In this document: in pieces, positions 8,556 through 64,000 of the stretch
Layout: each line of letters begins with the position of its first letter
Position numbering within the stretch: position 1 is the first letter of the stretch
Assembly (NCBI RefSeq): GCF_018320785.1
Contig: NC_054871.1
Coordinates: forward strand, 14,697,756 to 14,761,755
Source of the DNA: Cheilinus undulatus
Taxonomy: Eukaryota > Chordata > Actinopteri > Labriformes > Labridae
Reading direction: 5' to 3'
Length of the DNA: 64,000 nt
Notes under the pieces: generated by a model
Told to the model about the DNA's origin: nothing
Database searches by the model: none
Seen by the model: only the letters and a program-made list of their open reading frames with translations
Made by a program: the position numbers and the translations under genes

Positions 8556-8619
8556 ATGGACAGAAGACTCCTTTATTGGATATTAATGCTTGGATATTTA
8601 CAACTATCCTCTGGACAAA
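8556..8619 (+). CDS. Mucin 1 exon 1: signal peptide
   Basis: The ATG in CATCAACATGG opens 21 codons encoding MDRRLLYWILMLGYLQLSSG plus Q, a textbook secretory signal peptide: basic n-region DRR, hydrophobic core LLYWILMLGYL and SSG before the cleavage point. The donor CAAA|GTAACT leaves in phase 1. An almost identical exon at 51294-51357 splices in frame into the second Thr-rich array (54773). I therefore assign this exon to the array that follows the gap at 14584. The matching acceptor of mucin 1 is lost in the gap. The product would be a secreted or cell-surface O-glycosylated mucin. The gene has no name I can recognise. Confidence 0.8.
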
Positions 8620-9130
8620 GTAACTATCTTTTTATTTCTAAAATATCCTGTTATATCAGATTAGGCTGGAGAAAGGAGAGAACAGATTTGTTTGTTTGAC
8701 ATTAGATCTTCTAATGCTTTTAAATGGTGTTAATTACTGCAAAGACAGGCAGGAATTTTGTCGATATTTTACAATTCATTGTTTTCATAAAGTCCAATGC
8801 CATTTAATATTTATTTTTTTACATATATTATATTATATTATAAATGGTCTTCTGTCATGGACATATGGGACCAATAAATGTTAAGGTTTTAAAACAAAAT
8901 GCCACATTTTTTACATTCAATGCTGATCAACAAGATGCATGCATGTTGTTTTAAAATATTAAAATATTAAAACCCAAACTGAATCAGTTTCCCGTCACAC
9001 AAAAAATGATTCAAATAAAGTAAAGTACTCCCTAACCTAGAATCTAGATTATTACTACCTGCATTCAAAGTTACAGAAAAAACGGAGGTTAGCACTGTTT
9101 CCCTTGTTAAAATGGTAGTGTCGACTAAAT

Positions 9131-9745
9131 CAGGGGTTCCCAAAGTTTTCAGTTGATGACCCCCAAAATAACGGTGAAGAAGACCGGGGACCCCCAGCGT
9201 CCTGAAGGCTGGTTGTGGCATAGTTGAACACAGCCATGCACATTCAAGAATCATCATGTTGAGGACTTTTTACCTCTGCCAAGGAGGTTATGTGATCGGC
9301 AGGGTTTGTTTGTTAGCAACATAACTCAAAAGGTTATGGACGGATTTTGATGACATTTTCAGAAAATGTCAGAAATGGCATAAGAAAGAACTGATTAGAT
9401 TTTGGGAGTGATCTGGATCACCGTCTAGATCCATGTTTTTTTTTTTTTAAAGGATTCCTTACTATTGGGAGATAGGGCTAATGGCGGAGGTCTGCGCTGT
9501 CCGAGTGCTTTTCTAGTTAAACACTGCTTTGATTTCAGCATAAATCTCAACAAATTACTATGTTTTTATTTTTGATCAACCCAATTTTATGCATATATTT
9601 CTACAGTAATGTGCAAAATACACAATTTAAAATTATTTTAAACTATTTAAAACTACTCTTTGTTTCTTGGAAGGCCTCTCATGACCCCCACCCAGTGTCC
9701 CACGACCCCCCAGGGGGTTCCTGACCCCCACTTTGGGAACCACTG
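9131..9745. mobile_element. hAT non-autonomous element with perfect 8-bp target duplication
   Basis: Ends are CAGGGGTTCCCAAAGT and ACTTTGGGAACCACTG, inverted repeats of hAT type. The 8-mer gactaaat flanks both sides exactly (9123-9130 and 9746-9753). Inside, about 9270-9520, sits a second repeat beginning CTCTGCCAAGGAGGTTATGT, a word I remember as widespread in fish genomes. Copy B (near 51957) has the unoccupied site, so the insertion is younger than the duplication. Confidence 0.88.
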
Positions 9746-14483: not shown

Positions 14484-14583
14484 NNNNNNNNNNNNNNNNN
14501 NNNNNNNNNNNNNNNNNNNNNNNNNNNNNNNNNNNNNNNNNNNNNNNNNNNNNNNNNNNNNNNNNNNNNNNNNNNNNNNNNNN
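14484..14583. other. Assembly gap of 100 N
   Basis: Exactly 100 N, the usual placeholder for a gap of unknown size. It hides the splice acceptor and the first few codons of mucin 1 exon 2. The first bases after it align with mucin 2 about 20 bases into its exon 2 (near 54794). Confidence 0.98.
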
Positions 14584-17500
14584 GACCACCACAAACTTCC
14601 ACAGCTCCAACCACCAACCACAGCTGCTCCAACCACCACAACCACAGCTGCCCCAAAAACTACAACTACTGTTGCTCCAACCACCACAACCACAGCTGCC
14701 CCAAAAACTACAACTACTGTTGCTCCTACCACCACAACCACAGCAGCTCCAACCAAAACCACATCTGCTCAAACCACAACAACCACAGCCGCTGCAACCA
14801 CCACTACCAAAGCTTCTCCAACCACCACAACCACAGCTGCTCCAACCACCACAACCACAGCTGCTCCAACCACCACAAACACAGCTGCGCCAACCACCAC
14901 AACCACAGCTGCTCCAACCACCACAACCACAGCTGCGCCAACCACCACAACGACAGGTGCTGCAACCACAACAACAACAGCGGCTAAAACCACCACAACC
15001 ACAGCTGCTCCAACCACCACAACCACAGCTGCTCCAGTCACCACAACCACAGCTGCCCCAACCACCACAACCACAGCGGCTCAAACCACCACAACCACAG
15101 TTGCGCCAACCACCACAACCACAGCTGCTCCAACCACCACATCCACAGCGGCTCAAACCACCACAACCACAGCTGCTCCAACCACCACAACCACAGCTGC
15201 TCCAACCACCACAAACACAGCTGCTCCAACCACCACAACCACAGCTGCTCCAACCACCACAACCACAGCTGCGCCAACCACCACAACCACAGCGGCTCAA
15301 ACCACCACAACCACAGCGGCTCAAACCACCACAACCACAGCTGCTCCAACCACCACAACCAAAGCTGCTCCAACCACCACAGCCACAGCTGCCCCAACAA
15401 CTACAACTACTGTTGCTCCGACCACCACAGCGGCACCAACAACCACAATGACAGGTGCTCCAACCACAACAACCACTGCTGCTCCAACCACCACTACCAC
15501 AGCATCTCCAACCACCACAACCACAGCTTCTGCAACCACCAGAACCACAGCTGCTCCAACAACCACAACCACAGCTGCTCCAACCACCACAACCGCAGCT
15601 GCTCCAACCACCACAACCACAGCTGCCCCAACAACTACAACCACTGCTGCCCCAACAACTAAAACTACTGTTGCTCCGACCACCACAACCACAGCTGCTC
15701 CAACCACCACACCCACAGCGGCTCAAACCACCACAACCACAGCTGCTCCAACCACCACAACCACAGCTGCCCCAACAACTACAACCACTGTTGCTCCGAC
15801 CACCACAACCACAGCAGCACCAACCACCACAACCACAGCAGCTCAAACCACCACAACCACAGCTGCCCCAACCACCACAACCACAGCAGCTCCAACCACC
15901 ACAACCACAGCGGCTCCAGCCACCACAACCACAGCTGCGCCAACCACCACAACCACAGCTGCCCCAACAACTACAACTACTGTTGCTCCGACCACCACAA
16001 CCACAGCTGCTCCAACCACCACAACCACAGCTGCTCCAACAACCACAACCACAGCTACTCCAACCACCACAACCACAGCTGCTCCAACCACCACAACCAC
16101 AGCTGCCCCAACAACTACAACTACTGTTGCTCCGACCACCACAACCACAGCGGCTCAAACCACCACAACCACAGCTGCTCCAACCACCACAACCACAGCT
16201 GCTCCAACCACCACAACCACAGCTGCTCCAACCACCACAACCACAGCTGCTCCAGTCACCACAACCACAGCTGCCCCAACCACCACAACCACAGCGGCTC
16301 AAACCACCACAACCACAGTTGCGCCAACCACCACAACCACAGCTGCTCCAACCACCACATCCACAGCGGCTCAAACCACCACAACCACAGCTGCTCCAAC
16401 CACCACAACCACAGCTGCTCCAACCACCACAAACACAGCTGCTCCAACCACCACAACCACAGCTGGTCCAACCACCACAACCACAGCTGCTCCAACCACC
16501 ACAACCACAGCTGCGCCAACCACCACAACCACAGCGGCTCAAACCACCACAACCACAGCGGCTCAAACCACCACAACTACAGCTGCTCCAACCACCACAA
16601 CCAAAGCTGCTCCAACCACCACAGCCACAGCTGCCCCAACAACTACAACTACTGTTGCTCCGACCACCACAGCGGCGCCAACAACCACAATGACAGGTGC
16701 TCCAACCACAACAACCACTGCTGCTCCAACCACCACTACCACAGCATCTCCAACCACCACAACCACAGCTTCTGCAACCACCAGAACCACAGCTGCTCCA
16801 ACAACCACAACCACAGCTGCTCCAACCACCACAACCACAGCTGCTCCAACCACCACAACCACAGCTGCCACAACAACTACAACTACTGTTGCTCAGACCA
16901 CCATAACCACAGCTGCTCCAACCACCACACCCACAGCGGCTCAACCCACCACAACCACAGCTGCTCCAACCACCACAACCACAGCTGCCCCAACAACTAC
17001 AACCACTGTTACTCCGACCACCACAACCACAGCAGCACCAACCACCACAACCACAGCTGCTCCAACCACCACAACCACAGCTGCTCCAACAACCACAACC
17101 ACAGCTGCTCAAACAACCACAACCACAGCTACTCCAACCACCACAACCACAGCTGCTCCAACCACCACAACCACAGCTGCCCCAACAACTACAACTACTG
17201 TTGCTCCGACCACCACAACCACAGCGGCTCAAACCACCACAACCACAGCTGCTCCAACAACCACAACCACAGCTGCTCCAACCACCACAACCACAGCGGC
17301 TCAAACCACAACAACCACAGTTGCGCCAACCACCACAACCACAGCTGCTCCAACCACCACATCCACAGTGGCTCAAACCACCACAACCACAGCTGCTCCA
17401 ACCACCACAACCACAGCTGTGCCAACCACCACAACCACAGCTGCTCCAACCACCACAACCACAGCTGCTCCAACCACCACATCCACAGTGGCTCAAACCA

Positions 17501-20500
17501 CCACAACCACAGCTGCTCCAACCACCACAACCACAGCTGCTCCAACCACCACAACCACAGCTGCTCCAACCACCACAACCACAGCTGTGCCAACCACCAC
17601 AACCACAGCTGCTCCAACCACCACAACCACAGCTGCCCCAACAACTACAACTACTGTTGCTCCAACCACCACAACCACAGCGGCTCAAACCACCAGAACC
17701 ACAGCTGCTCCAACCACCACAACCACAGCTGCTCCAACCACCACAACCACAGCAGCTCCAGCAACCACAACCACAGCTGCGCCAACCACCACAACCACAG
17801 CAGCTCCAACCACCACATCCACAGCGGCTCCAACCACCACAACCACAGCTGCTCCAACCACCACAACCACAGCTGCTCCAACCACCACAACCACAGCTGC
17901 TCCAACCACCACAAACACAGCTGCTCCAACCACCACAACCACAGCTGCTCCAACCACCACAACCACAGCTGTGCCAACCACCACAACCACAGCTGCTCCA
18001 ACCACCACATCCACAGCGGCTCAAACCACCACAACCACAGCTGCTCCAACCACCACAACCACAGCTGCTCCAACCACCACAACCACAGCTGCTCCAACCA
18101 CCACAACCACAGCTGCTCCAACCACCACAACCACAGCTGCTCCAGCCACCACAGCCACAGCTGCCCCAACAACTACAACTACTGTTGCTACGACCACAAC
18201 AACCACAGCTGCTCCAACCACCACTACCACAGCTGGTCCAACCACCACAACCACAGCTGCCCCAACAACTACAACTACTGTTGCTCCGACCACCACAACC
18301 ACAGCTGCTCCAACCACCACAACCACAGCTGCTCCAACCACCACAACCACAGCTACCCCAACAACTACAACTACTGTTGCTCCGACCACCACAACCACAG
18401 CTGCTCCAACCACCACAACCACAGCTGCCCCAAAAACTACAACTACTGTTGCTCCGACCACCACAACCACAGCAGCTCCAACCAAAACCACTTCTGCTCA
18501 AACCACAACAACCACAGCCGCTGCAACCACCACTACCACAGCTTCTCCAACAACCACAACAACTGCAGCTCCAACAACTACAACAACTGCAGCTCCAACA
18601 ACTACAACAACTGCAGCTCCAACAACTACAACTACTGCTGCTCCAACAACTACAACAACTGCAGCTCCAACAACTACAACAACTGCAGCTCCAACAACTA
18701 CAACAACTGCAGCTCCAACAACTACAACAACTGCAGCTCCAACAACTACAACTACTGCTGCTCCAACAACCACAACAACTGCAGCTCCAACAACCACAAC
18801 TGCAGCTCCAACAACTACAACAACTGCAGCTCCAACAACCACAACAACTGCAGCTCCAACAACTACAACTACTGCTGCTCCAACAACTACAACAACTGCT
18901 GCTCCAACCACCACAACCACAGCTGCCACAACAACTACAACTACTGTTGCTCCGACCACCACAACCACAGCGGCTCCAACCACCACAACCACAGCTGCTC
19001 CAACCACCACAACCACAGCTGCCCCAAAAACTACAACTACTGTTGCTCCAACCACCACAACCACAGCTGCCCCAAAAACTACAACTACTGTTGCTCCTAC
19101 CACCACAACCACAGCAGCTCCAACCACAACCACATCTGCTCAAACCACAACAACCACAGCCGCTGCAACCACCACTACCACAGCTTCTCCAACCACCACA
19201 ACCACAGCTGCTCCAACCACCACAACCACAGCTGCTCCAACCACCACTACCACAGCTGCCCCAACAACTACAACTACTGTTGCTCCAACCACCACAACCA
19301 CAGCTGCGCCAACCACCACAACCACAGCTGCTCCAACCACCACAACCACAGCTGCTCCAACCACCACAACCACAGCTGCTCCAACCACCACAACCACAGC
19401 TGCCCCAACAACCACAACCACAGCTGCCCCAACAACTACAACTACTGTTGCTCCGACCACCACAACCACAGCTGCTCCAACCACCACAACCACAGCTGCT
19501 CCAACCACCACAACCACAGCTGCCCCAAAAACTACAACTACTGTTGCTCCAACCACCACAACCACAGCTGCCCCAAAAACTACAACTACTGTTGCTCCTA
19601 CCACCACAACCACAGCAGCTCCAACCACAACCACATCTGCTCAAACCACAACAACCACAGCCGCTGCAACCACCACTACCACAGCTTCTCCAACCACCAC
19701 AACCACAGCTGCTCCAACCACCACAACCACAGCTGCTCCAACCACCACTACCACAGCTGCCCCAACAACTACAACTACTGTTGCTCCAACCACCACAACC
19801 ACAGCTGCACCAACCACCACAACCACAGCTGCTCCAACCACCACAACCACAGCTGCCCCACCAACCACAACCACAGCTGCCCCCACCACAACAACAACTG
19901 TTGCTCCTACCACCACAACCACAGCTGCTCCAACCACCACAACCACAGCTGCTCCAACAACCACAACCACCACAGCTGCTCCAACAACTACAACAGCTGC
20001 TCCGACCACCACAACCACAGCAGCTCATACCACAACAACCACAGCTGCCCCAACAACTACAACTACTGTTGCTCCGACCACAACAACCAAAGCGGCTCAA
20101 ACCACCACAACCACAGCTGCTCCAACCACCACAACCACAGCTGCTCCAACCACCACAACCACAGCTGCTCCAACCACCACAACCACAGCTGCTCCAGCCA
20201 CCACAACCACAGCTGCCCCAACAACCACAACCACAGCTGCCCCAACAACTACAACTACTGTTGCTCCGACCACCACAACCACAGCGGCTCCAACCACCAC
20301 AACCACAGCTGCTCCAACCACCACAACCACAGCTGCCCCAAAAACTACAACTACTGTTGCTCCAACCACCACAACCACAGCTGCCCCAAAAACTACAACT
20401 ACTGTTGCTCCTACCACCACAACCACAGCAGCTCCAACCAAAACCACATCTGCTCAAACCACAACAACCACAGCCGCTGCAACCACCACTACCAAAGCTT

Positions 20501-23500
20501 CTCCAACCACCACAACCACAGCTGCTCCAACCACCACAACCACAGCTGCTCCAACCACCACAAACACAGCTGCGCCAACCACCACAACCACAGCTGCTCC
20601 AACCACCACAACCACAGCTGCGCCAACCACCACAACGACAGGTGCTGCAACCACAACAACAACAGCGGCTAAAACCACCACAACCACAGCTGCTCCAACC
20701 ACCACAACCACAGCTGCCCCAACAACTACAACTACTGTTGCTCCGACCACAACAACCACAGCGGCTCAAACCACCACAACCACAGCTGCTCCAACCACCA
20801 CAACCACAGCGGCTCCAACCACCACAACCACAGCAGCTCCAGCCACCACAACCACAGCTGCGCCAACCACCACAACCACATCTGCTCCAACCACCACATC
20901 CACAGCGGCTCAAACCACCACAACCACAGCTGCTCCAACCACCACAACCACAGCTGCTCCAACCACCACAACCACAGCCGCTGCAACCACCACTACCAAA
21001 GCTTCTCCAACCACCACAACCACAGCTGCTCCAACAACCACAACCACAGCTACTCCAACCACCACAACCACAGCTGCCCCAACAACCACAACCACAGCTG
21101 CCCCAACAACTACAACTACTGTTGCTCCGACCACCACAACCACAGCTGCTCCAACCACCACAACCACAGCTGCCCCAACAACTACAACTACTGTTGCTCC
21201 GACCACCACAACCACAGCGGCTCAAACCACCACAACCACAGCTGCTCCAACCACCACAACCACAGCTGCTCCAACCACCACAACCACAGCTGCTCCAGCC
21301 ACCACAACCACAGCTGCCCCAACAACCACAACCACAGCTGCCCCAACAACTACAACTACTGTTGCTCCGACCACCACAACCACAGCGGCTCCAACCACCA
21401 CAACCACAGCTGCTCCAACCACCACAACCACAGCTGCCCCAAAAACTACAACTACTGTTGCTCCAACCACCACAACCACAGCTGCCCCAAAAACTACAAC
21501 TACTGTTGCTCCTACCACCACAACCACAGCAGCTCCAACCACAACCACATCTGCTCAAACCACAACAACCACAGCCGCTGCAACCACCACTACCACAGCT
21601 TCTCCAACCACCACAACCACAGCTGCTCCAACCACCACAACCACAGCTGCTCCAACCACCACTACCACAGCTGCCCCAACAACTACAACTACTGTTGCTC
21701 CAACCACCACAACCACAGCTGCGCCAACCACCACAACCACAGCTGCTCCAACCACCACAACCACAGCTGCTCCAACCACCACAACCACAGCTGCTCCAAC
21801 CACCACAACCACAGCTGCTCCAACCACCACAACCACAGCTGCTCCAACCACCACAACCACAGCTGCCCCAACAACCACAACCACAGCTGCCCCAACAACT
21901 ACAACTACTGTTGCTCCGACCACCACAACCACAGCTGCTCCAACCACAACAACCACAGCTGCCCCAACAACTACAACTACTGTTGCTCCGACCACAACAA
22001 CCAAAGCGGCTCAAACCACCACAACCACAGCTGCTCCAACCACCACAACCACAGCTGCTCCAACCACCACAACCACAGCTGCTCCAACCACCACAACCAC
22101 AGCTGCCCCAACAACCACAACCACAGCTGCCCCAACAACTACAACTACTGTTGCTCCGACCACCACAACCACAGCGGCTCCAACCACCACAACCACAGCT
22201 GCTCCAACCACCACAACCACAGCTGCCCCAAAAACTACAACTACTGTTGCTCCAACCACCACAACCACAGCTGCCCCAAAAACTACAACTACTGTTGCTC
22301 CTACCACCACAACCACAGCAGCTCCAACCAAAACCACATCTGCTCAAACCACAACAACCACAGCCGCTGCAACCACCACTACCAAAGCTTCTCCAACCAC
22401 CACAACCACAGCTGCTCCAACCACCACAACCACAGCTGCTCCAACCACCACAACCACAGCTGCGCCAACCACCACAACCACAGCTGCTCCAACCACCACA
22501 ACCACAGCTGCACCAACCACCACAACGACAGGTGCTGCAACCACAACAACAACAGCGGCTAAAACCACCACAACCACAGCTGCTCCAACCACCACAACCA
22601 CAGCTGCTCCAACCACCACAACCAAAGCTGCTACAACCACCCCAACCACAGCTGCTCCAACCACCACAACCACAGCTGCTACAACCACCACAACCACAGC
22701 ATCTCCAACCACCACAACCACAGCTTCTGCAACCACCAGAACCACAGCTGCTCCAACAACCACAACCACAGCAGCTCCAACCACCACAACCACAGCTGCT
22801 CCAACCACCACAACCACAGCTGCTCCAGCCACCACAACCACAGCTGCCCCAACAACCACAACCACAGCTGCTCCGACCACCACAACCACAGCTGCGCCAA
22901 CCACCACAACCACAGCTGCTCCAACCACCACAACCACAGCTGCGCCAACCACCACAACCACAGCTGCTCCAACTTCCACAACCACAGCTGCTCCAACCAC
23001 CACAACCACAGCTGCTCCAACCACCACAACCACAGCTGCTACAACCACCACAACCACAGCTGCCCCAACAACTACAACTACTGTTGCTCCAACCACCACA
23101 ACCACAGCGGCTCAAACCACCACAACCACAGCTGCTCCAACCACCACAACCACAGCTGCTCCAACCACCACAACCACAGCAGCTCCAGCCACCACAACCA
23201 CAGCTGCGCCAACCACCACAACCACAGCTGCTCCAACCACCACATCCACAGCGGCTCCAACCACCACAACCACAGCTGCTCCAACCACCACAACCACAGC
23301 TGCTCCAACCACCACAACCACAGCTGCTCCAACCACCACAACCACAGCTGCTCCAACCACCACAACCACAGCTGCTCAAACCACCACATCCACAGCAGCT
23401 CAAACCACCACAACCACAGCTGCTCCAACCACCACAACCACAGCTGCTCCAACCACCACAACCACAGCTGCGCCAACCACCACAACCACAGCTGCTCCAA

Positions 23501-26500
23501 CCACCACAACCACAGCTGCTCCAACCAACACAGCCACAGCTGCCCCAACAGCTACAACTACTGTTGCTACGACCACCACAACCACAGCTGCGCAAACCAC
23601 AACAACCACTGCTGCTCCAACCACCACTACCACAGCTGGTCCAACCACCACAACCACAGCTGCCCCAAAAACTACAACTACTGTTGCTCCGACCACCACA
23701 ACCACAGCTGCTCCAACCACCACAACCACAGCTTCTCCAACCACCACAACCACAGCTGCCCCAACAACTACAACTACTGTTGCTCCGACCACCACAACCA
23801 CAGCTGCTCCAACCACCACAACCACAGCTGCTCCAACAACGACAACCACAGCTGCCCCAAAAACTACAACTACTGTTGCTCCAACCACCACAACCACAGC
23901 TGCCCCAAAAACTACAACTACTGTTGCTCCTACCACCACAACCACAGCAGCTCCAACCACAACCACATCTGCTCAAACCACAACAACCACAGCCGCTGCA
24001 ACCACCACTACCACAGCTTCTCCAACCACCACAACCACAGCTGCTCCAACCACCACAACCACAGCTGCTCAAACCACCACAAACACAGCTGCCACAACAA
24101 CTACAACTACTGTTGCTCAGACCACCACAACCACAGCTGCGCCAACAACCACAACCACAGTGTCTCAAACCACCACAACCACAGCTGCTCCAACCACCAC
24201 AACCACAGCTGCCCCTACAACCACAACCACAGCTGTTCCAACCACCACAACCACAGCTGTGCCAACCACCACAACCACAGCTGCTCCAACCACCACATCC
24301 ACAGCGGCTCAAACCACCACAACCACAGCTGCTCCAACCACCACAACCACAGCTGCTCCAACCACCACAACCACAGCTGCTCCAACCACCACAACCACAG
24401 CTGCTCCAACCACCACAGCCACAGCTGCCCAAACAACTACAACTACTGTTGCTCCGACCACCACAACCACAGCTGCTCCAACCACCACAACCACAGCTGC
24501 TCCAACAACCACAACCACAGCTACTCCAACCACCACAACCACAGCTGCTCCAACCACCACAACCACAGCTGCCCCAACAACTACAACTACTGTTGCTCCG
24601 ACCACCACAACCAACTGCTGCTCCACCACTACAACCACACTGCAGCTCCAACAACCACCACAACCACAGCTGCTCCAACCACCACAACCACAGCTGCTCC
24701 AACCACCACAACCACAGCTGCTCCAACCACCACAACCACAGCTGCTCCAACCACCACAACCACAGCTGCTCCAACCACCACAACCACAGCTGCGCCAACC
24801 ACCACAACCACAGCTGCTCCAACCACCACAACCACAGCTGCTCCAACCACCACAACCACAGCTGCTCCAACAACTACAACTACTGTTGCTCCGACCACCA
24901 CATCCACAGTTGCTCCAACCACCACAACCACAGCGGCTCAAACCACCACAACCACAGCGGCTCCAACCACCACAACCACAGCTGCTCCAACCACCACAAC
25001 CACAGCTGCTCCAACCACCACAACCACAGCTGCTCCAGCCACCACAACCACAGCTGCCCCAACAACCACAACCACAGCTGCTCCAACCACCACAACCACA
25101 GCTGCTCCAACCACCACAACCACAGCTGCGCACACCACCACAACCACAGCTGCTCCAACCACCACAACCACAGCGGCTCAAACCACCACAACCACAGCTG
25201 CTCCTACCACCACAACCACAGCTGCTCCAACCACCACAACAGCGGCTGCCCCAACAACTACAACTACTGTTGCTCTGACCACCACAACCACAGCTGCGCC
25301 AACAACCACAACCACAGCGGCTCAAACCACCACAACCACAGCTGCTCCAACCACCACAACCACAGCTGCTCCAACCACCACAACCACAGCTGCTCCAACC
25401 ACCACAACCGCAGCTGCCCCAACAACTACAACTACTGTTGCTCCAACAACCACAACAACAGCTGCGCCAACCACCACAACAGCAGGTGCTCCAACCACCA
25501 CAACCCCAGCTGCGCCAACCACCACAACCACAGCGGCTCAAACCACAACAACCAGAGCAGCTCCAACGACAACCACAGCTGCCCCAAAAACTACAACTAC
25601 TGTTGCTACGACCACCACAACCACAGCAGCTCCAACCACAACCACAGCTGCCCCAACAACTACAACTACTGTTGCTCCAACCACCACAACCACAGCTGCG
25701 CCAACCACCACAACGACAGGTGCTGCAACCACAACAACCACAGCAGCTCCAACGACAACCACATCTGCTCAAACCACAACAACCACTGCTGCGCCAACCA
25801 CCACTACCACAGCTGCTCCGACCACCACAGCCACAGCTGCCCCAACAACTACAACTACTGTTGCTCCGACCACCACAACCACAGCTGCGCCAACCACCAC
25901 AACGACAGGTGCTCCAACCACAACAACCACAGCAGCTCCAACCACAACCACATCTGCTCAAACCACCACAACCACAGCGGCTCAAACCACCACAACCACA
26001 GCTGCTCCAACCACCACAACCACAGCTGCTCCAACCACCACAACCACAGCTGCTCCAACCACCACAACCACAGCTGCGCCAACCACCACAACCACAGCTA
26101 CTCCAACCACCACAACCACAGCTGCTCCAACCACCACAACCACAGCTGCTCCAACAACTACAACTACTGTTGCTCCGACCACCACATCCACAGTTGCTCC
26201 AACCACCACAACCACAGCGGCTCAAACCACCACAACCACAGCTGCTCCAACCACCACAACCACAGCTGCTCCAACCACCACAACCACAGCTGCCCCAACA
26301 ACTACAACTACTGTTGCTCCGACCACCACAACCACAGCTGCGCCAACCACCACAACCACAGCGGCTCAAACCACCACAACCACAGCTGCTCCAACCACCA
26401 CAACCACAGCAGCTCCAACCACCACAACCACAGCTGCTCCAACCACCACAACCACAGCTGCCCAAACAACCACAACCACAGCTGCGCCAACCACCACAAC

Positions 26501-34552: not shown

Positions 34553-34638
34553 GTCTGTTCTCACTGGCACATTTCCAGATCAGATTACGTTGTCTTCAGG
34601 ACATCAGCAATGAGACCCTCACTAATGAAATAAAAAAG
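34553..34638 (+). CDS. Mucin 1 exon 3
   Basis: Acceptor TTGATTCATACAG at 34552, donor AAAAAG|GTGCAA at 34639. It enters in phase 1, exactly what the array donor (CCA G|GT) leaves, and exits in phase 0. The 86 nt encode G, LFSLAHFQIRLRC, then LQDISNETLTNEIKK. The NET is an N-glycosylation sequon. The alternating hydrophobic strand followed by an amphipathic helix is like half of a SEA-type fold, but I cannot assign a family. Confidence 0.6.
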
Positions 34639-44265: not shown

Positions 44266-44350
44266 CTCTGATAAAAGCCCCAATCTGATAGTAGGAGAGA
44301 GGATCATTGTGGCTGCCAGAGGAGGGAATATATCTGAAGTGACACAAGGC
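44266..44350 (-). pseudogene. ttc14: ttc14 pseudogene, exon 4 copy
   Basis: An 85-nt copy of exon 4 with intact splice sites (acceptor CTTTCAG, donor G|GTAAGTG) and an open frame reading ALCHFRYIPSSGSHNDPLSY then YQIGAFIR. Differences from the intact copy include I to F, E to Y, D to N and D to A. The first exons of the gene are missing and exon 3 is broken, so it cannot make TTC14. Confidence 0.88.
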
Positions 44351-44413
44351 CTGAAAGCAAAAGTAAGATACATACAGATGGTTTGACTATATTTCAGGGT
44401 ACCATTTCAACCT

Positions 44414-44943
44414 CACCTTGCAAAGCAGATGGATTTGCTGTTTCCCTGTTTCTCACTGGCAAATCCATGTTGCAAAGCTCCCATGTGAACAGTTTGGGCC
44501 TGTTTAGAAAGTGAAAGGACAGATCAGCATTGAGGAGCAGTGCTTTCAGGCACAGGAGAATTGTGACGTAAGCAAGCAGCAAGAGGAGGCCGGTGCATTT
44601 ATGGTGGAAGAGATTACTGTGAGTTCTGCTATAGCATCCGTTTTATCAGAACTTGACAATATTTCCTCGTTGAAAGAAAAAAAAAGAACGGCATTGAGTT
44701 GTTTTCTTTTCAAAAATGACAAAAGTTGTGTACTGAAATGTCTATAGTCGTCATGGTTCACGTTAAGCAGTCCTCTATGGACTTTACTCCTCAGTAGCGG
44801 CTACGATGTCTCGTGTTTTGTTGCTCTGATTGATCCATAAAGATGTGACAGAAAGTTTACACAATCTCCCTCCGAGTTTTTTTCAAAGGCTCTGCTATTT
44901 CCCAAACACTGTCTATAGAAGGTTTTCTGGCGTGTCAGGTTAA
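44414..44943. mobile_element. Copy-B-specific insertion with 10-bp direct repeats
   Basis: A 530-bp block flanked by atttcaacct on both sides (44404-44413, 44944-44953). Copy A has the site once (near 297). The size and direct repeats say transposition; the class is unclear because I see no good inverted ends. Confidence 0.6.
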
Positions 44944-45918
44944 TTTCAACCTTTATTAAATTAAATAAGTACAGAGTTCACAAACTGCAAGCCTGTGTGA
45001 GCCTGTTAGCAAATTAGCCACTACCATAACTTATCAGCCAAATACCATCCTCTACTGTTGACTAGACACCACATTAAAACTCAGCATCTCAAATGAAAAA
45101 TGAGTCTTACCGTCAGTTGTCCTATATTAGTCCTCATAATGATATAAATGTAACCTCTGCTAAAGCGGTAAATCCAACCATTGTGGTTTACTGGGAGTAA
45201 TCACGAAAAGACACAAGCTCCACAGCAGATATCCTAATTAGCCAGGACCCCCCAAGCATAAACAACTAGCTGTGAGGAAGAATGATGGAGCCCTCGCTAT
45301 CAGCCCCAAGCAGTCCATGCTAACCTGTGCAATGTGATTCTGTGTTGAATACAGTTTCATTTTATCTGAGAATTGGTCACAGGTAAATTTACCTACTCAT
45401 CAAAGTCCACTACAACTCTGCTCGGCGTAGGCCTTTCCCTCTTGGCTGCTGCATCGGTGTGCAAGCCACTCAGCCATCTGCAGTTCCCTTTGTTTCTACC
45501 TCTTTATGACTTGCAGCAAAGACTAACTCAAAATCCTTCCATACCGCTGATGATATCAAGCTTTTAGTTAACAAGAAAAAAACTCACTGAGATTAAAATT
45601 CTGTTTTCCTAGAGTTTTTGGGTAAAAATTTCCATGCATAGTTTTCTGTAGCGTTGAACTCCTTCAGAGATGAACTGGCTGACTGAGTAGATAAACAAAC
45701 CCAGTGCCACATGTAAAGTAGGTGTAGTAAGATTTATTTGATTTTATATTAAAGGATTCTTTGAACATAACTTCTAGGTAACACAAAATATAATATGTAC
45801 ATGCTAGTGGGTTTTTTTTGTTTGTTTGTTTGTTTGTTTTTTTGTTCTATTCTTGTATTTTCTTCTTCTTGGTTGTTCATAAGTGAAATTAACATAAAAT
45901 AATAAAGAAACTATAGTA

Positions 45919-46354
45919 TGTTATGACCTGACTCAAGGAGGTAACAAAGAGGGAGTCCACACTTAGTATAAAGAATTAACAAATGTATATTTATTTGTAA
46001 CATATGGTCAAACTTATCAAATAACTAATGTGTTATGTAAATGTGAGTTATCAGTCATGTCTGGAATGTATGGATGAGTGAATGTGTAGTGTGGTTGTAG
46101 TGAAATGTGCATCAAACCAAAAAAAAGGATGACATGTCAGCAGCAGGCCCAGCTGAGAGAGAGTGAGAATCTCAAACAGGCTGGCTTATCTGCCTGTCTG
46201 AAGGCCCTGCACAGGTGAGCAGCAATCAGCTCACAACTCCTCACAGCACCACCCTAATGCCAACTTCAAACACCTGAAAGAGGGGAAACATGGCTGAGAG
46301 CAAGGCATGGAGGAAATCAAGGCGAGTGGAAACCAAATGGGAGGGGTCGTCACA
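45919..46354. mobile_element. Copy-B-specific DNA element, about 436 bp
   Basis: Absent from copy A near 1006-1012. The ends TGTTATGACC and inverted TGTGACGACC match in 8 of 10 bases; flanks agta and agtg suggest a short target duplication. The family is not assigned. Confidence 0.55.
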
Positions 46355-46882
46355 AGTGTAATATTCATAGTTGAGACACATCATGCCAATAAGTCAAGCC
46401 TGTGATAAGCTTACATAAGATGCAAGATTTGTAGAACACCAACACCCACACCAACCATGCAAGAACTCCAAGAGCACAGAGCTGACACATTATGTAGAAA
46501 GGGCCGACTGATAACATCAACAATTCTGCACGTGCGATAGACTGATATAACTTTATGCCTTCTAGTTACTATCGCCGCCATGGCTGTGTTTGTTGTTTTT
46601 CCTCCATCAGTAACTTTGCCTCCAGATTGGCCATCATTTTCTTTCTTATCATAAGTATTGACCATGTTTATTTTTTAAAATTGGGATGACCCTGAATCTC
46701 TTCAAAACAGATCAGGGAAAATAAAATTCCTCCTGACCTGCCTCAGGAAAATCTGGTCAGTAAGAAATTTTGAATAATCAGGACTTTGCTGACATTGGTG
46801 GGAAAGTGGGAATCAGGTCTGATTATTCTGTTGTGTGTAATCAGCCTTTTTAAAATTCAGCTGCATGAAATAATTGACCTAC

Positions 46883-47060
46883 CAACAACTCCAAGTCCTC
46901 TATGTCTCTCTTCAGCCCTCCTGCTGTGCAGAGCAGTGTTAGAGAGAAGCCATATTCTCTGATGTTCTTGATTGTCCCCACTACAATGTCTCCTCTCCAA
47001 GTCCCTGTACAGCATGGCTCTCCCCTCCTCGAAAGACACTTCCATGGATAACTCCACTGG
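46883..47060 (-). pseudogene. ttc14: ttc14 pseudogene, exon 3 copy, truncated and frameshifted
   Basis: Matches intact exon 3 from the donor side (GAGTTGTT|GGTAGG region). About 78 bp covering the exon's 5' end and the splice acceptor have been deleted: the text jumps from CTCCACTGG to sequence matching intron position 1738. A 2-base deletion (TCTCCTCTCC against TCTCCTCTCTCC) shifts the frame within the RDLERGDIV segment. Both lesions are disabling. Confidence 0.9.
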
Positions 47061-51293: not shown

Positions 51294-51357
51294 ATGGACC
51301 GAAGACTCCTTTATTGGATTTTAATGCTTGGATATTTACAACTATCCTCTGGACAAA
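51294..51357 (+). CDS. Mucin 2 exon 1: signal peptide
   Basis: Same 21 codons as mucin 1 exon 1 with identical protein (MDRRLLYWILMLGYLQLSSG plus Q); the visible base differences (CGA for AGA, TTT for ATA region) leave the peptide nearly or fully unchanged. Donor CAAA|GTAACT, phase 1. Exon 2 begins with GT, giving AGT (Ser), then ACG ACA ACT ATG ACA in the Thr frame. The splice phase and array frame agree, independent support that this exon and the array belong to one gene. The product would be a secreted Thr-rich mucin, paralogous to mucin 1. Confidence 0.85.
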
Positions 51358-54772: not shown

Positions 54773-57700
54773 GTACGACAACTATGACATTAGCTACAAC
54801 CACCACAACTTCGACAGCGCCAACCACAGCTGCTCCAACCATCACAACCACAGCTGCTCCAACCACCACAACCACAGCTGCACCAACCACCACAACCACA
54901 GCTGCTCCAACCATCACAACCACAGCTGCTCCAACCACCACAACCACAGCTGCACCAACCACCACAATCACAGTTGCTCCAACCACCACAACCACAGCTG
55001 CCCCAACAACCACAACTACTGTTCCTACCACCACCACATCAACAGCTGCTCCAACCACCACAACCACAGCTGTCCCATCAACCACAACCACCGCGGCTCC
55101 AACCACCACAACCACACCAGCCACTACCACCACAACTACTGTTGCTCCTACCACCACCACAACCACAGCTATTCCAACCACCACAACCACAGCTGCTCCT
55201 GCCACCACCACAACTACAGCAGCTCCCACCACCACAACCACAGCTGCTCCAACCACCACAACGACAGCTGCTCCAACCACCACAACCACAGCTACTCCAA
55301 CCATTACAACCACAGCTCCTCCAACCATCACAACCACAGCAGCTCCAACCGCCACAACCACAGCTGCTCCAACCACAACGACCACAGCTGCTCCAACCAC
55401 CACAACGACAGCTGCTCCAACCACCACAACCACAGCTACTCCAACCACCACAACAACAGCTGCTCCAACAACGACAACTGCAGCTGCTCCAACCACCACA
55501 ACCACAGCTCTTCCAACCACCACCACAACAACAGCTGCTCCAACCACCACAACTACTGTTGCTCCTACCACCACCACAACCACAGCGGCTCCAACCACCA
55601 CAACGACAGCTGCTCCAACCACCACAACCACAGCTGCTCCAACCACCACAACAACAGCTGCTACAACCACCAGAACTACTCCAACCACCACCACCACAGC
55701 CGCTCCAACCACCACAACCACAGCAGCTCCAACCACCACAACAACAGCTGCTCCAACTACCACAACCACAGCTGCCCCAACAACCACAACTACTGTTGCT
55801 CCCACCACCACAAGCACAGCGCTTCCAACCACCACAACCACACCAGCCCCAACCACCGCAACAACAGCTGCTCCTACAACCACAACTACTGTTGCTCCCA
55901 CCACCACAACCACAGCGGCTCCAACCACCACAACGACAGCTGCTCCTACCACCAGAACAACAACAGCTGCTCCTACAACCACCACAACAACAGCTGCCCC
56001 AACAACCACAACCACCGCGGCTCCAACCACCACAACCACACCAGCCCCAACCACCACAACTACTGTTGCTCCCACCACCACCACAACCACAGCTACTCCA
56101 ACAACCACCACCACAGCTATTCCAACCACCACAACCACAGCAGCTCCAACCACCACAACAACAGCTGCTCCAACCACCACAACCACAGCTGCCCCAACAA
56201 CCACAACTACTGATGCTCCCACCACCACAACAACAGCTGCTCCAACCACCACAACCACAGCTGCTACAACCACCACAACCACAGCTGCTCCAACCACCAC
56301 AACCACAGCTGCCCCAACAACCACAACTACTGTTGCTCCCACCACCATAACAACAGCTGCTCCAACCACCACAACCACAGCTGCCCCAACCACCACAACA
56401 ACAGCTGCTCCAACCACCACAACCACAGCAGCTCCAACCACCACAACAACAGCTGCTCCAACCACCACAACCACAGCTGCCCCAACAACCACAACTACTG
56501 TTGCTCCAACCACCACAACCACAGCTGCTCCTTCAACCACCACAACAACAGCTGCTCCAACCACCACAACAACAGCTGCTCCTACAACCACCACAACAAC
56601 AGCTGCTCCAACCACCACAACCACAGCTGCCCCAACCACCACAACTACTGTTGCTCCCACCACCACCACAACCACAGCTACTCCAACAACCACCACCACA
56701 GCTATTCCAACCACCACAACCACAGCTACTCCAACAACCACAACAACAGCTGCTCCAACCACCACAACCACAGCTGCCCCAACAACCACAACTACTGTTG
56801 CTCCCACCACCACAACAACAGCTGCTCCAACCACCACAACCACAGCTGCTCCAACCACCACAACCACAGCTGCTCCAACCACAACAACCACAGCTGCTCC
56901 AACCACCACAACCACAGCTGCTCCAACAACGACGACCACCACAACTACTGTTGCTCCCACCACCACAACCACAGCGGCTCCAACCACCACAACCACAGCT
57001 GCTCCTACCACCACCACAACAACAGCTGCTCCAACCACCACAACAACAGCTGCCCCAACAACCACAACAACCGCGGCTCCAACCACCACAACCACACCAG
57101 CCCCAACCACCACAACAACAGCTGCCCCAACAACCACAACAAACACAGCTACTCCAACAACCACCACCACAGCTATTCCAACCACCACAACCACAGCAGC
57201 TCCAACCACCACAACAACAGCTGCTACAACCACCACAACTACTCCAACCACCACCACCACATCTGCTCCAACCACCACAACCACAGCAGCTCCAACCACC
57301 ACAACAACAGCTGCTCCGACCACCACAACCACAGCTGCCCCAACAACCACAACTACTGTTGCTCCCACCACCACAACAACAGCTGCTCCTACAACCACAA
57401 CCACAGCTGCTACACCAACCACAACCACAGCTGCTCCAACCACAACAACCACAGCTGCCCCGACAACCACAACTACTGTTGCTCCAACCACCACAACCAC
57501 AGCTGCTCCTACAACCACCACAACAACAGCTGCTCCAACCACCACAACAACAGCTGCCCCAACAACCACAACCACCACGGCTCCAACCACCATAACCACA
57601 CCAGCCCCAACCACCACAACTACTGTTGCTCCCACCACCACCACAACCACAGCTACTCCAACAACCACCACCACAGCTATTCCAACCACCACAACCACAG

Positions 57701-60700
57701 CAGCTCCAACCACCACAACAACAGCTGCTCCAACCACCACAACCACAGCTGCCCCAACAACCACAACTACTGTTGCTCCCACCACCACAACAACAGCTGC
57801 TCCAACCACCACAACCACAGCTGCTACAACCACCACAACCACAGCTGCTCCAACCACAACAACCACAGCTGCTCCAACCACCACCACCACAACTACTGTT
57901 GCTCCCACCACCACAACCACAGCTGCCCCAACAACCACAACCACAGCTGCTCCAACCACAACAACCACAGCTGCCCCAACAACCACAACTACTGTTGCTC
58001 CAACCACCACAACCACAGCTGCTACAACCACCACAACCACAGCTGCTCCAACCACAACAACCACAGCTGCCCCAACAACCACAACTACTGTTGCTCCAAC
58101 CACCACAACCACAGCTGCCCCAACAACCACAACCACAGCTGCTCCAACCACAACAACCACAGCTGCCCCAACAACCACAACTACTGTTGCTCCAACCACT
58201 ACAACCACAGCTGCTCCAACCACAACAACCACAGCTGCCCCAACAACCACAACTACTGTTGCTCCAACAACCACAACCACAGCTGCTACAACCACCACAA
58301 CCACAGCTGCTACAACCACCACAACCACAGCTGCTCCAACCACAACAACCACAGCTGCCCCAACAACCACAACTACTGTTGCTCCAACCACTACAACCAC
58401 AGCTGCTCCAACCACCACAACCACAGCTGCCCCAACAACCACAACTACTGTTGCTCCCACCACCACAACAACAGCTGCTCCAACAACCACAACCACAGCT
58501 GCTACAACCACCACAACCACAGCTGCTCCAACCACCACAACCACAGCTGCTCCAACAACCACAACTACTGTTGCTCCAACCACCACAACCACAGCTGCTC
58601 CTACAACCACCACAACAACAGCTGCTCCAACCACCACAACAACAGCTGCCCCAACAACCACAACCACCACGGCTCCAACCACCATAACCACACCAGCCCC
58701 AACCACCACAACTACTGTTGCTCCCACCACCACCACAACCACAGCTACTCCAACAACCACCACCACAGCTATTCCAACCACCACAACCACAGCAGCTCCA
58801 ACCACCACAACAACAGCTGCTACAACCACCACAACTACTCCAACCACCACCACATCAGCTGCTCCAACCACCACAACCACAGCAGCTCCAACCACCACAA
58901 CAACAGCTGCTCCGACCACCACAACCACAGCTGCCCCAACAACCACAACTACTGTTGCTCCCACCACCACAACAACAGCTGCTCCTACAACCACAACCAC
59001 AGCTGCTACAACAACCACAACCACAGCTGCTCCAACCACAACAACCACAGCTGCCCCAACAACCACAACTACTGTTGCTCCAACCACCACAACCACAGCT
59101 GCTCCTACAACCACCACAACAACAGCTGCTCCAACCACCACAACCACAGCTGCCCCAACAACCACAACCACCACGGCTCCAACCACCATAACCACACCAG
59201 CCCCAACCACCACAACTACTGTTGCTCCCACCACCACCACAACCACAGCTACTCCAACAACCACCACCACAGCTATTCCAACCACCACAACCACAGCAGC
59301 TCCAACCACCACAACAACAGCTGCTCCAACCACCACAACCACAGCTGCCCCAACAACCACAACTACTGTTGCTCCCACCACCACAACAACAGCTGCTCCA
59401 ACCACCACAACCACAGCTGCTACAACCACCACAACCACAGCTGCTCCAACCCCCACAACCACAGCTGCTCCAACCACCACCACAACTACTGTTGCTCCCA
59501 CCACCACAACCACAGCTGCCCCAACAACCACAACCACAGCTGCTCCAACCACAACAACCACAGCTGCCCCAACAACCACAACTACTGTTGCTCCAACCAC
59601 CACAACCACAGCTGCTACAACCACCACAACCACAGCTGCTCCAACCACAACAACCACAGCTGCCCCAACAACCACAACTACTGTTGCTCCAACCACCACA
59701 ACCACAGCTGCCCCAACAACCACAACCACAGCTGCTCCAACCACAACAACCACAGCTGCCCCAACAACCACAACTACTGTTGCTCCAACCACTACAACCA
59801 CAGCTGCTCCAACCACAACAACCACAGCTGCCCCAACAACCACAACTACTGTTGCTCCAACAACCACAACCACAGCTGCTACAACCACCACAACCACAGC
59901 TGCTACAACCACCACAACCACAGCTGCTCCAACCACAACAACCACAGCTGCCCCAACAACCACAACTACTGTTGCTCCAACCACCACAACCACAGCTGCT
60001 CCAACCACCACAACCACACCAGCTCCAACAACCACAACTACTGTTGCTCCCACCACCACAACAACAGCTGCTCCAACAACCACAACCACAGCTGCTACAA
60101 CCACCACAACCACAGCTGCTCCAACCACCACAACCACAGCTGCTCCAACAACCACAACTACTGTTGCTCCAACCACCACAACCACAGCTACTCCTACAAC
60201 CACCACAACAACAGCTGCTCCAACCACCACAACAACAGCTGCCCCAACAACCACAACCACCACGGCTCCAACCACCATAACCACACCAGCCCCAACCACC
60301 ACAACTACTGTTGCTCCCACCACCACCACAACCACAGCTACTCCAACAACCACCACCACAGCTATTCCAACCACCACAACCACAGCAGCTCCAACCACCA
60401 CAACAACAGCTGCTACAACCACCACAACTACTCCAACCACCACCACATCAGCTGCTCCAACCACCACAACCACAGCAGCTCCAACCACCACAACAACAGC
60501 TGCTCCGACCACCACAACCACAGCTGCCCCAACAACCACAACTACTGTTGCTCCCACCACCACAACAACAGCTGCTCCTACAACCACAACCACAGCTGCT
60601 ACAACAACCACAACCACAGCTGCTCCAACCACAACAACCACAGCTGCCCCAACAACCACAACTACTGTTGCTCCAACCACCACAACCACAGCTGCTCCTA

Positions 60701-63700
60701 CAACCACCACAACAACAGCTGCTCCAACCACCACAACCACAGCTGCCCCAACAACCACAACCACCACGGCTCCAACCACCATAACCACACCAGCCCCAAC
60801 CACCACAACTACTGTTGCTCCCACCACCACCACAACCACAGCTACTCCAACAACCACCACCACAGCTATTCCAACCACCACAACCACAGCAGCTCCAACC
60901 ACCACAACAACAGCTGCTCCAACCACCACAACCACAGCTGCCCCAACAACCACAACTACTGTTGCTCCCACCACCACAACAACAGCTGCTCCAACCACCA
61001 CAACCACAGCTGCTACAACCACCACAACCACAGCTGCTCCAACCACAACAACCACAGCTGCTCCAACCACCACCACCACAACTACTGTTGCTCCCACCAC
61101 CACAACCACAGCTGCCCCAACAACCACAACCACAGCTGCTCCAACCACAACAACCACAGCTGCCCCAACAACCACAACTACTGTTGCTCCAACCACCACA
61201 ACCACAGCTGCTACAACCACCACAACCACAGCTGCTCCAACCACAACAACCACAGCTGCCCCAACAACCACAACAACTGTTGCTCCAACCACCACAACCA
61301 CAGCTGCTACAACCACCACAACCACAGCTGCCCCAACAACCACAACCACAGCTGCTCCAACCCCAACAACCACAGCTGCCCCAACAACCACAACTACTGT
61401 TGCTCCAACCACTACAACCACAGCTGCTCCAACCACCACAACCACAGCTGCTCCAACCACCACAACAACAGCTGCTCCAACCACAACAACCACAGCTGCC
61501 CCAACAACCACAACTACTGTTGCTCCAACAACCACAACCACAGCTGCTACAACCACCACAACCACAGCTGCTACAACCACCACAACCACAGCTGCTCCAA
61601 CCACAACAACCACAGCTGCCCCAACAACCACAACTACTGTTGCTCCAACCACTACAACCACAGCTGCTACAACCACCACAACCACAGCTGCTCCAACCAC
61701 CACAACCACAGCTGCCCCAACAACCACAACTACTGTTGCTCCAACCACAACAACAGCTGCTCCAACAACCACAACCACAGCTGCTACAACCACCACAACC
61801 ACAGCTGCTCCAACCACCACAACCACAGCTGCTCCAACAACCACAACTACTGTTGCTCCAACCACCACAACCACAGCTGCTCCTACAACCACCACAACAA
61901 CAGCTGCTCCAACCACCACAACAACAGCTGCCCCAACAACCACAACCACCACGGCTCCAACCACCATAACCACACCAGCCCCAACCACCACAACTACTGT
62001 TGCTCCCACCACCACCACAACCACAGCTACTCCAACAACCACCACCACAGCTATTCCAACCACCACAACCACAGCAGCTCCAACCACCACAACAACAGCT
62101 GCTCCAACCACCACAACCACAGCTGCCCCAACAACCACAACTACTGTTGCTCCCACCACCACAACAACAGCTGCTCCAACCACCACAACCACAGCTGCTA
62201 CAACCACCACAACCACAGCTGCTCCAACCACAACAACCACAGCTGCTCCAACCACCACCACCACAACTACTGTTGCTCCCACCACCACAACCACAGCTGC
62301 CCCAACAACCACAACCACAGCTGCTCCAACCACAACAACCACAGCTGCCCCAACAACCACAACTACTGTTGCTCCAACCACCACAACCACAGCTGCTACA
62401 ACCACCACAACCACAGCTGCTCCAACCACAACAACCACAGCTGCCCCAACAACCACAACTACTGTTGCTCCAACCACCACAACCACAGCTGCTACAACCA
62501 CCACAACCACAGCTGCCCCAACAACCACAACCACAGCTGCTCCAACCACAACAACCACAGCTGCCCCAACAACCACAACTACTGTTGCTCCAACCACTAC
62601 AACCACAGCTGCTCCAACCACCACAACCACAGCTGCTCAAACCACCACAGCAACAGCTGCTCCAACCACAACAACCACAGCTACCCCAACAACCACAACT
62701 ACTGTTGCTCCAACAACCACAACCACAGCTGCTACAACCACCACAACCACAGCTGCTACAACCACCACAACCACAGCTGCTCCAACCACAACAACCACAG
62801 CTGCCCCAACAACCACAACTACTGTTGCTCCAACCACTACAACCACAGCTGCTCCAACCACCACAACCACAGCTGCTCCAACCACCACAACCACAGCTGC
62901 CCCAACAACCACAACTACTGTTGCTCCCACCACCACAACAACAGCTGCTCCAACAACCACAACCACAGCTGCTACAACCACCACAACCACAGCTGCTTTA
63001 ACCACTACAACCACAGCTACTCCAACCACCACAACAACAGCTGCTCCAACAACGACAACTACAGCTACTCCAACCACTGCAACCACAGCTTCTCCAACCA
63101 CCACAACCACAGAAGCTCCCACCACCACAACCACAGCAGCTCAAACAACCACAACCACACCAGCCCCAACCACCACAACTACTGTTGCTCCTACCACCAC
63201 CACAACAACAGCTGCTCCAACCACCACAACCACATCTGCCCCAACAACCACAACTACTGTTGCTCAAACCACCACAACCATCAGAGCTGCTCCAACCACC
63301 ACAACAACCACAGGTGCTCCACAAACTACAACAACCATAGCTGCTCCAACCACTACCACCACACCAACAACAACAACTACTCCACCAACCACCACAACTA
63401 CTCCAACCCCCACAACCACTCCAATCACCACAACCACTCCAGTTTCCACAACCACTCAAACCACAACAACCATTCCAATCACCCCAACAACTCCAACAAC
63501 CACGACAGTCACCACTACCACTCAAGCCACAACAACCACTTCAACCACCACAACCATTCCAAGCATTACAAGTCCAATCACTACAACCACTCAAACCACA
63601 TCAACCACTCCGATCACTACGACAACTGTTCCAATCACATTAACCACTCAAACAACAACGACTCCCACCACATCAACCAGTCAGAGCACAACAACCACTC

Positions 63701-64000
63701 CAATCATCACAACCACTCCAATCACCACAACCACTACAACAACCACTCCAATCAGCACAACCACTCAAGCCACAACAACCATTTCAACCACCACAACCAC
63801 TCCAATCACAACAACCACTCCAATCACAACAACCACTCCAATCACCACAAGCACTCCAGGCATCACAACAAGTCCATTCACCACAACCACTCAGACCACA
63901 TCAACCACTCCGATCACCACGACAACCACTCCAGTCATCACAACCACTCCAGCCACAACAACCATTCCAATCACCCCAACAACTCCAACCACAACAACCA
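54773..64000 (+). CDS. Mucin 2 exon 2: giant Thr/Ala/Pro repeat domain (runs off window)
   Basis: Acceptor at 54771-54772 after a strong pyrimidine tract. With exon 1 the protein reads SS-GQ-S then TTTMTLATTTTSTAP and on into TTTTTAAP repeats. The Thr frame (codons starting at 54775) stays open for at least 3,075 codons to the window end, with no frameshift that I can find. The order is the same as in mucin 1: TTTTTAAP array to 63348, then the TTTTPI type. Variants AIP, ATP, APP, PAP and VAP mark higher-order repeats. Cys is absent. The likely role is a heavily O-glycosylated secreted or surface glycoprotein; the C-terminus, and so any membrane or GPI anchor, is not in the window. Confidence 0.85.
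54775..63348 (+). repeat. 24-bp coding tandem array, TTTTTAAP, mucin 2
   Basis: About 357 units by length. The unit is the same as in mucin 1, but the variant set differs: CTATTCC (AIP), CTACTCC (ATP) and ACACCAGCC (TPAP) are common, while the mucin 1 variants SAQ and KTT are absent or rare. Confidence 0.95.
57092..61969 (+). repeat. Higher-order repeat in mucin 2 array: three 1.6-kb super-units
   Basis: The marker ACCATAACCACACCAGCCCC ends blocks at 57595, 58687, 59191, 60280, 60784 and 61969. Steps are 1092, 504, 1089, 504 and 1185 bp, a short (504) and a long (about 1090) block alternating. The short blocks at 58688-59191 and 60281-60784 give identical translations. The third long block is 96 bp (four units) longer. 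A further long-type block follows from 61970 without a short one. Confidence 0.88.
63349..64000 (+). repeat. 18-bp coding array, [12 protein letters not shown], mucin 2 (partial)
   Basis: After a mixed stretch ([19 protein letters not shown]) the CCAATCACCACAACCACT unit takes over, as in mucin 1 from 27084. More varied than mucin 1, with PGI, TQT, PVS and SIT units. Runs off the window. Confidence 0.9.

Follow-up and report, generated by a model that had tools for sequence, protein, structure and literature searches.

The window analysed here, a 64,000-nucleotide stretch of the Cheilinus undulatus assembly GCF_018320785.1 (C7:14697756-14761755), carries the first two members of a cluster of four related genes, two of which contain giant threonine-rich repeat arrays. 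All further coordinates of the cluster are given in window numbering. Genome-wide searches were made in the same assembly (1.17 Gb, 46 contigs), from which the flanking sequence was also taken. Exon matches place gene 1 at 8556-34859 on the plus strand, gene 2 at 51294-70939, with its end beyond the window, and genes 3 and 4 at 82709-88586 and 99562-105084, both beyond the window. Thus, the locus that had originally been predicted to be a tandem pair is a cluster of four, genes 3 and 4 following at ~82.7 and ~99.6 kb. Exons 1, 3 and 4 were each located at four places, the match for exon 4 of gene 4 being a weak one (E 0.15). The exon-1 DNA and the exon-3/4 DNA each gave four genome matches and a protein search with exon 3/4, at E up to 10, gave seven, all of them inside the C7 cluster. 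The four genes display a common plan in which a signal-peptide exon is followed by a phase-1 variable exon 2 and by two short 3' exons that give a C-terminal part of 54-55 residues, the exon lengths being 64, variable, 86, and 81 or 78. Every visible intron is bounded by GT-AG, the splice sites and start context are conserved where visible, and the frames are open in genes 2 to 4. All four genes encode the signal peptide MDRRLLYWILMLGYLQLSSGQ or a version that differs by one change, as judged by inspection. At 8556 and 51294 the 21-residue signal-peptide frames are identical and the 64-nt exons differ at two positions, which upholds the prediction that genes 1 and 2 have the same signal-peptide exon. 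Genes 1-3 terminate in ..RVPAAP and gene 4 in ..RVPAVQ. Identity among genes 1-3 reaches 0.93-0.94 in exon 3 and 0.88-0.90 in exon 4, while their identity to gene 4 is 0.74-0.77 and 0.69-0.72, respectively.

Gene 2 provides the cleanest model. Its exon 1, encoding the signal peptide, lies at 51294..51357 on the plus strand and is joined at a phase-1 junction to exon 2, which occupies 54773..64000 on the same strand up to the window edge and continues beyond it as one open frame to 70165 (15,393 bp). The complete model comprises four exons with GT-AG junctions and encodes 5,207 residues in a single frame without internal stop. Threonine accounts for 63% and proline for 12.5% of the protein, which contains one cysteine. 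A plus-strand array of 24-bp units encoding TTTTTAAP (54821-63363) is followed by an array of 18-bp units encoding TTTTPI (63344-70139, its end beyond the window). Within the 24-bp array, between 57118 and 61776, higher-order blocks are 97.8-98.5% identical at lags of 1593, 3189 and 1185, and reflect either recent block amplification or assembly duplication. In intron 1, a 264-bp inverted repeat with 90% identity at 53547-54234 is perhaps a non-autonomous transposon.

Gene 1 has the same architecture on the plus strand, in a less regular assembled form. Exon 1 (8556..8619) encodes MDRRLLYWILMLGYLQLSSGQ and the first base of a split codon, and ends at the donor GTAACT. A run of 100 N, an assembly gap, covers the exon-2 acceptor and the first exon-2 bases (14484..14583); because of it, the phase-1 junction predicted to be the same in both genes, which is observed in gene 2, is visible in gene 1 at the donor only. 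As assembled, exon 2 spans 14584..34044, with its 5' end in the gap and a GTATTT donor, and holds a TTTTTAAP array (14604-27097) and then a TTTTPI array (27069-34024). Exon 3 (34553..34638) encodes LFSLAHFQIRLRCLQDISNETLTNEIKK after a split Gly codon, and exon 4 (34779..34859) encodes LFEDQLLPGISHTVKVTNIHRVPAAP and ends in the stop TAG. The predicted order of a 24-bp array followed by an 18-bp array is therefore seen in both genes, the octapeptide TTTTTAAP and the hexapeptide TTTTPI being the commonest in-frame peptides of the respective arrays. TTTTPI is the less uniform of the two, representing 419 of 2,319 in-frame hexapeptides in gene 1 and 582 of 2,257 in gene 2 (rotations pooled).

The 19.5 kb of array in gene 1 is assembled in two frames. 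The threonine frame passes from 1 mod 3 to 0 mod 3 at ~24604-24650, where three small indels are clustered, by inspection, within ~50 bp at 24.6 kb (24604..24662, plus strand) and produce a one-base shift. The frame used before the break meets a stop at 25278, and an expected peptide, TSTAPTT, occurs near the gap edge in yet another frame. The proposal of a single frame exceeding 6,500 residues, made on the proviso that the exon is whole, is thus not borne out by the assembled sequence, which gives no support for intactness. Downstream of the break 3,146 codons stay open and the 94 24-bp units that directly follow it retain a third-position bias; for this reason the frame irregularities are likely to be consensus errors. 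A broader explanation, in which the array lengths, the frame break of gene 1 and the near-identical blocks of gene 2 are all assembly artefacts and the true mucins are of another size, is possible but doubtful. The gap at the array edge, the tight clustering of the indels and the block identities all point in that direction, against the open codons and biased units found after the break, and such artefacts would touch the sizes only. Two insertions are also observed around this gene. In intron 1, a relic at 12460-13980, which we take to belong to the Tc1/mariner family, has parts copied at ~95.9-97.9 kb with 80-87% identity. Downstream of the stop, a LINE-like (long interspersed nuclear element) insertion at 34950-40100 splits a flank that resembles, by inspection, the 3' flank of gene 4.

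The middle exons of the two remaining genes are different. Gene 3 has an exon 2 of 2,373 bp, encodes 867 residues and carries an array (85471-87843) of the unit AACACAACCATTGCTGCTCCAACC (NTTIAAPT), which aligns codon for codon with the 24-bp unit of genes 1 and 2 through one Thr to Asn and one Thr to Ile replacement. Of its 86 asparagines, 82 lie in N-x-S/T sequons, and the unit Asn differs in one of 83 called units. Gene 3 has no TTTTPI array. In gene 4, exon 2 measures 126 bp and encodes 42 residues, among which Pro, Thr, Ala and Ser are abundant, with no repeat, and the whole protein has 117 residues.

Several lines of evidence suggest that the repeats are maintained as coding sequence. All 240 non-zero unit spacings in the six arrays of genes 1-3 (12, 9, 42, 77, 85 and 15) are multiples of three, a count that omits array ends, stretches too diverged for unit calls and, in gene 1, 14584-14604 and the frame break at 24604-24662. 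In the 24-bp arrays, variation at codon positions 1, 2 and 3 amounts to 0.031, 0.046 and 0.168 in gene 1 and to 0.070, 0.036 and 0.243 in gene 2, so that third positions vary 3 to 7 times as much as positions 1 and 2. This excess has a permutation p of 1e-4 to 3e-4 and holds with distinct units only. Similarly, non-synonymous differences in these arrays are 0.24-0.27 of expectation with all units and 0.33-0.37 with distinct units. For the unique exons 1, 3 and 4 taken together, the ratio of non-synonymous to synonymous substitution rates (dN/dS) falls at 0.25-0.36 for every one of the six pairs of the four genes; exon 1 (0-0.14) and exon 3 (0.13-0.22), both as uncorrected ratios, account for the low values. 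The repeats are, to judge from the sequence, real and protein-coding. Exons 1 and 3, like the TTTTTAAP units, are under purifying selection, which is not clearly the case for exon 4.

The class of the products was addressed through composition and domain content. With the PTS (proline, threonine and serine) criterion of more than 40% S/T and at least 5% P per 100 residues, as formulated in the available part of PMC5728529, 5,107 of 5,108 windows of gene 2 qualify, as do 3,243 of 3,243 and 3,047 of 3,047 in the two pieces of gene 1. A search for VWD (PF00094) gave 133 genome matches, none of them at C7:14.6-14.9 Mb (best 150 of 170 candidates scored), in a search that did not extend to the C8, TIL and cystine-knot families. 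The C-terminal part encoded by exons 3 and 4 had no Pfam match at E up to 10 (genes 1 and 3), matched 0 families in NCBIfam and gave only two weak matches among solved structures (E 1.1-1.4). SEA ancestry of this part was considered and rejected, there being neither a Pfam match for exon 3+4 nor profile similarity to the SEA sequence of a gene on C22 described below. A genome-wide SEA search returned two matches, none in the cluster; its silence is weak evidence because the C22 SEA domain, being divided between exons, escaped it as well, and the direct comparisons weigh more. No long hydrophobic stretch of the kind expected for a transmembrane segment or a glycosylphosphatidylinositol (GPI)-type tail follows exon 1 in genes 1-4, by inspection. 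The frog integumentary mucin C.1 (FIM-C.1), whose name is often used by automated fish annotation, combines threonine-cluster repeats with trefoil domains. The threonine clusters are shared with the C7 family; in contrast, no trefoil was found in the Pfam scans, which covered exons 1, 3 and 4 plus the first part of the gene 2 array and not whole proteins.

Together these observations favour, with a probability of about 0.73, the interpretation that the cluster consists of four tandem genes for short secreted proteins whose exon 2 was repeatedly turned into a glycan-carrying repeat domain. The best reading of the products is a predicted secreted, non-gel-forming orphan mucin family. The original expectation of a secreted, O-glycosylated function is accordingly retained as a best reading for the mucin-like genes 1 and 2, with their signal peptide and threonine-rich PTS composition. 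In gene 3 the PTS criterion holds in only 162 of 768 windows, and thus fails over most of the protein. A number of further findings weigh, with this one, against the interpretation. The 18-bp arrays display no significant codon-position bias (p 0.16-0.23; non-synonymous to synonymous differences 0.75-1.01 of expectation). The absence of stops in the threonine frame is weak evidence of coding because ACN (Thr) codons are two changes away from a stop. Exon 4 taken alone gives uncorrected ratios of 0.57-1.14 over the six pairs, with no clear constraint. The units of gene 3 differ by 7 synonymous versus 107 non-synonymous codon changes (5 versus 80 with distinct units), mostly non-synonymous and the reverse of the third-position bias, an excess that is given no positive-selection reading because the units are not independent of one another. 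Finally, the assembled gene 1 contains a gap and a frame break.

The last of these findings, together with the near-neutral behaviour of the 18-bp arrays and of exon 4, the missing array of gene 4 and the transposon-like insertions around gene 1, would also suit a decaying, unexpressed gene cluster in which the arrays are expanding minisatellites and the coding potential is a leftover. Such decay is improbable in view of the triplet rule followed by all 240 examined spacing changes, the strong third-position bias of the 24-bp units, the splice sites and start context conserved in the four genes where visible, and the constraint on exons 1 and 3 in six of six pairs. The sequons of gene 3 raise a different alternative, a reproductive or egg-coat glycoprotein family with a hyosophorin-like role instead of a mucosal mucin. 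Hyosophorin-type glycoproteins are stored in eggs and carry repeated N-glycan units, and fish egg glycoproteins of this kind are known, so that gene 3, with its 82 sequons, would be the clearest case. However, the repeats of hyosophorin contain acidic residues that the C7 units lack, and genes 1 and 2 are nearly free of sequons (3 and 2), which makes a role of this kind quite unlikely for the family.

For the favoured secreted mucin family, a route from gene to released product can be proposed. The product would enter the endoplasmic reticulum through its signal peptide. In proteins with a signal peptide, threonine clusters flanked by alanine and proline are well suited to Golgi GalNAc-transferases (N-acetylgalactosaminyltransferases). 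These enzymes would attach O-glycans to many of the more than 3,000 threonines in the gene 2 product and, provided that gene 1 is intact, to threonines of its product as well. Dense O-glycans produce extended, hydrated chains, and the glycosylated repeat domain would form a stiff, hydrated bottlebrush. Release as a soluble, non-gel-forming mucin is proposed because the searches revealed neither a VWD nor a SEA domain, and the C-terminus shows no hydrophobic segment. Without VWD parts a covalent gel would not form, and a soluble lubricating or decoy layer is the most likely outcome. Binding to a partner or a contribution to secretion is possible for the C-terminal part. On the gene 3 product, N-glycans would predominate. 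The arrays themselves would lengthen and become homogenised through slippage and unequal exchange, with selection on the frame holding these changes to triplet steps.

The arrays of genes 1 and 2 retain traces of a common past. When 240-bp blocks of gene 1 were compared with gene 2, the median identity was 0.917 for the 24-bp array, against 0.867-0.883 in ten unit-shuffled controls, and 0.858 for the 18-bp array, against 0.829-0.846 in ten such controls. The reverse direction gave 0.921 against 0.875-0.900 and 0.873 against 0.833-0.850, respectively. Since the blocks exceed the shuffled controls, both arrays share a history between the two genes, through descent or exchange. Similarity within a gene is higher than between genes (0.969 and 0.992 for the 24-bp arrays, 0.915 and 0.965 for the 18-bp arrays), indicating that homogenisation continues. 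The suggestion that two stacked PTS domains predated the duplication of genes 1 and 2 therefore remains plausible from these comparisons, although it is not forced. Gene 3 provides no outgroup, since its exons 3 and 4 are as near to both genes as those are to each other. As it has no TTTTPI array, the suggestion further requires either that gene 3 lost this array or that genes 1 and 2 exchanged arrays. Part of the region upstream of gene 3 also shows 95.6% similarity to its counterpart in gene 2 across 643 bp. A minus-strand gene at ~1-4811, presumably TTC14, flanks the cluster and shows weak S1-domain similarity (E 0.0041, below the cut-off). A partial second copy of its region (copies of 6-303, 1009-1331 and 1333-1659) lies at 44129..47060 on the minus strand and marks a duplicated segment upstream of gene 2, in which part of the flanking gene was carried along. 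A threonine-rich, exon-like stretch with possible splice sites at 40108-40175 was considered as a further exon and dropped because part of it is an interspersed repeat, the surrounding sequence having 22 genome matches including itself, most of them over bases 46-101 of the 101-base query.

When short segments of other Thr-rich loci were read, TTTTTAAP arrays also came to light at C16:5.45 Mb and C22:17.18 Mb. A protein search adds C7:4.18 Mb and C22:17.22 Mb and does not list C16 (E up to 0.001, best 150 of 860 candidates scored). The unit is thus not private to the C7 cluster family, and uniqueness of this first unit is refuted within the same genome by the C16 and C22 arrays. The commonest codons of the octapeptide are ACC ACC ACA ACC ACA GCT GCT CCA in the C7 cluster, ACA ACA ACC ACC ACA GCT GCA CCA at C16 and ACT ACA ACC ACC ACA GCT GCT CCA at C22, in a comparison restricted to TTTTTAAP octets, so that these differences are synonymous by construction. 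Without that restriction TTTTTAAP (rotations pooled) is still the top octapeptide at all three loci and the commonest DNA units differ. Spacing changes again occur in threes at C16 (13 of 13) and C22 (4 of 4). The ends of the three genes are not alike. The C22:17.18 Mb gene shares the TTTTTAAP array and contains, with its exons joined, a SEA domain (PF01390, E 3.2e-9), in contrast to the C-terminal part of the C7 family, which has no SEA match, and the C16 gene (C16:5455000-5458500) has a hydrophobic tail resembling, by inspection, a GPI-anchor signal. One octapeptide with three different ends would reflect either convergence on the peptide or an ancient dispersal, after which synonymous drift and homogenisation took place. 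A more ambitious reading, which we hold only tentatively, joins both sets of observations. The cluster would preserve successive stages in the birth of mucins from a single ancestor, with no array in gene 4, an N-sequon array in gene 3 and double giant O-type arrays in genes 1 and 2. A change of the homologous 24-bp unit from TTTTTAAP to NTTIAAPT, then homogenised, would have switched the glycan class of the domain, and within this genome selection would have favoured TTTTTAAP independently on three or more unrelated protein backbones, in a separate set of synonymous codons on each, the glycopeptide itself being the target.

Among known systems, the closest are the orphan mucins. The birth of mucins from proline-rich secreted genes via in-frame repeat gain ("mucinization", Pajic et al.) is reviewed in PMC12776774, which in its available part also covers antifreeze glycoprotein convergence. 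The likeness to that account lies in a short secreted gene with a P/T/S-rich exon and in-frame repeats between conserved ends. In contrast to the orphan mucins described in that part, the C7 cluster holds different repeat states in one tandem fish cluster, and the array of gene 3 is of N-sequon type, not Ser/Thr-rich O-type. The fish gel-forming muc2/muc5, as presented in the part of PMC5728529 considered, are likewise secreted and have a large PTS domain, whereas the C7 cluster has no VWD match (C8 and TIL were not searched) and gene 2 has a single cysteine in its 5,207 residues. Antifreeze glycoproteins, whose repeats are the subject of a codon analysis in PMC8622921, also have Thr/Ala/Pro glycopeptide repeats with more than one origin; as far as that text is available, their units are tripeptides with polyprotein linkers, unlike the octa- and hexapeptide units of C7. 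A Thr-rich, AAP-containing peptide is reported from Anabas testudineus skin mucus in the accessible part of PMC8632885, no more than a hint that such sequences may occur in fish mucus. A search with the letters of the TTTTTAAP unit found no title or abstract start describing such a gene, and no title returned by the searches of the open PubMed Central (PMC) literature, outside which most subscription papers lie, describes this mucin family. The family fits the mucinization kind, and its new points are an N-sequon sister and an array-less sister in one cluster.

The cluster bears on the question of how mucins arise out of short secreted proteins that are unrelated to one another. Four adjacent paralogues, related at their ends and each with a different middle, make the order of array gain, array loss and glycan switch workable by comparative genomics. 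The recurrence of TTTTTAAP has a known parallel in the convergent antifreeze glycoproteins, and the same octapeptide written in different codons at unlinked loci offers a natural test of whether glycosylation preference or shared descent fixes the repeat sequence.

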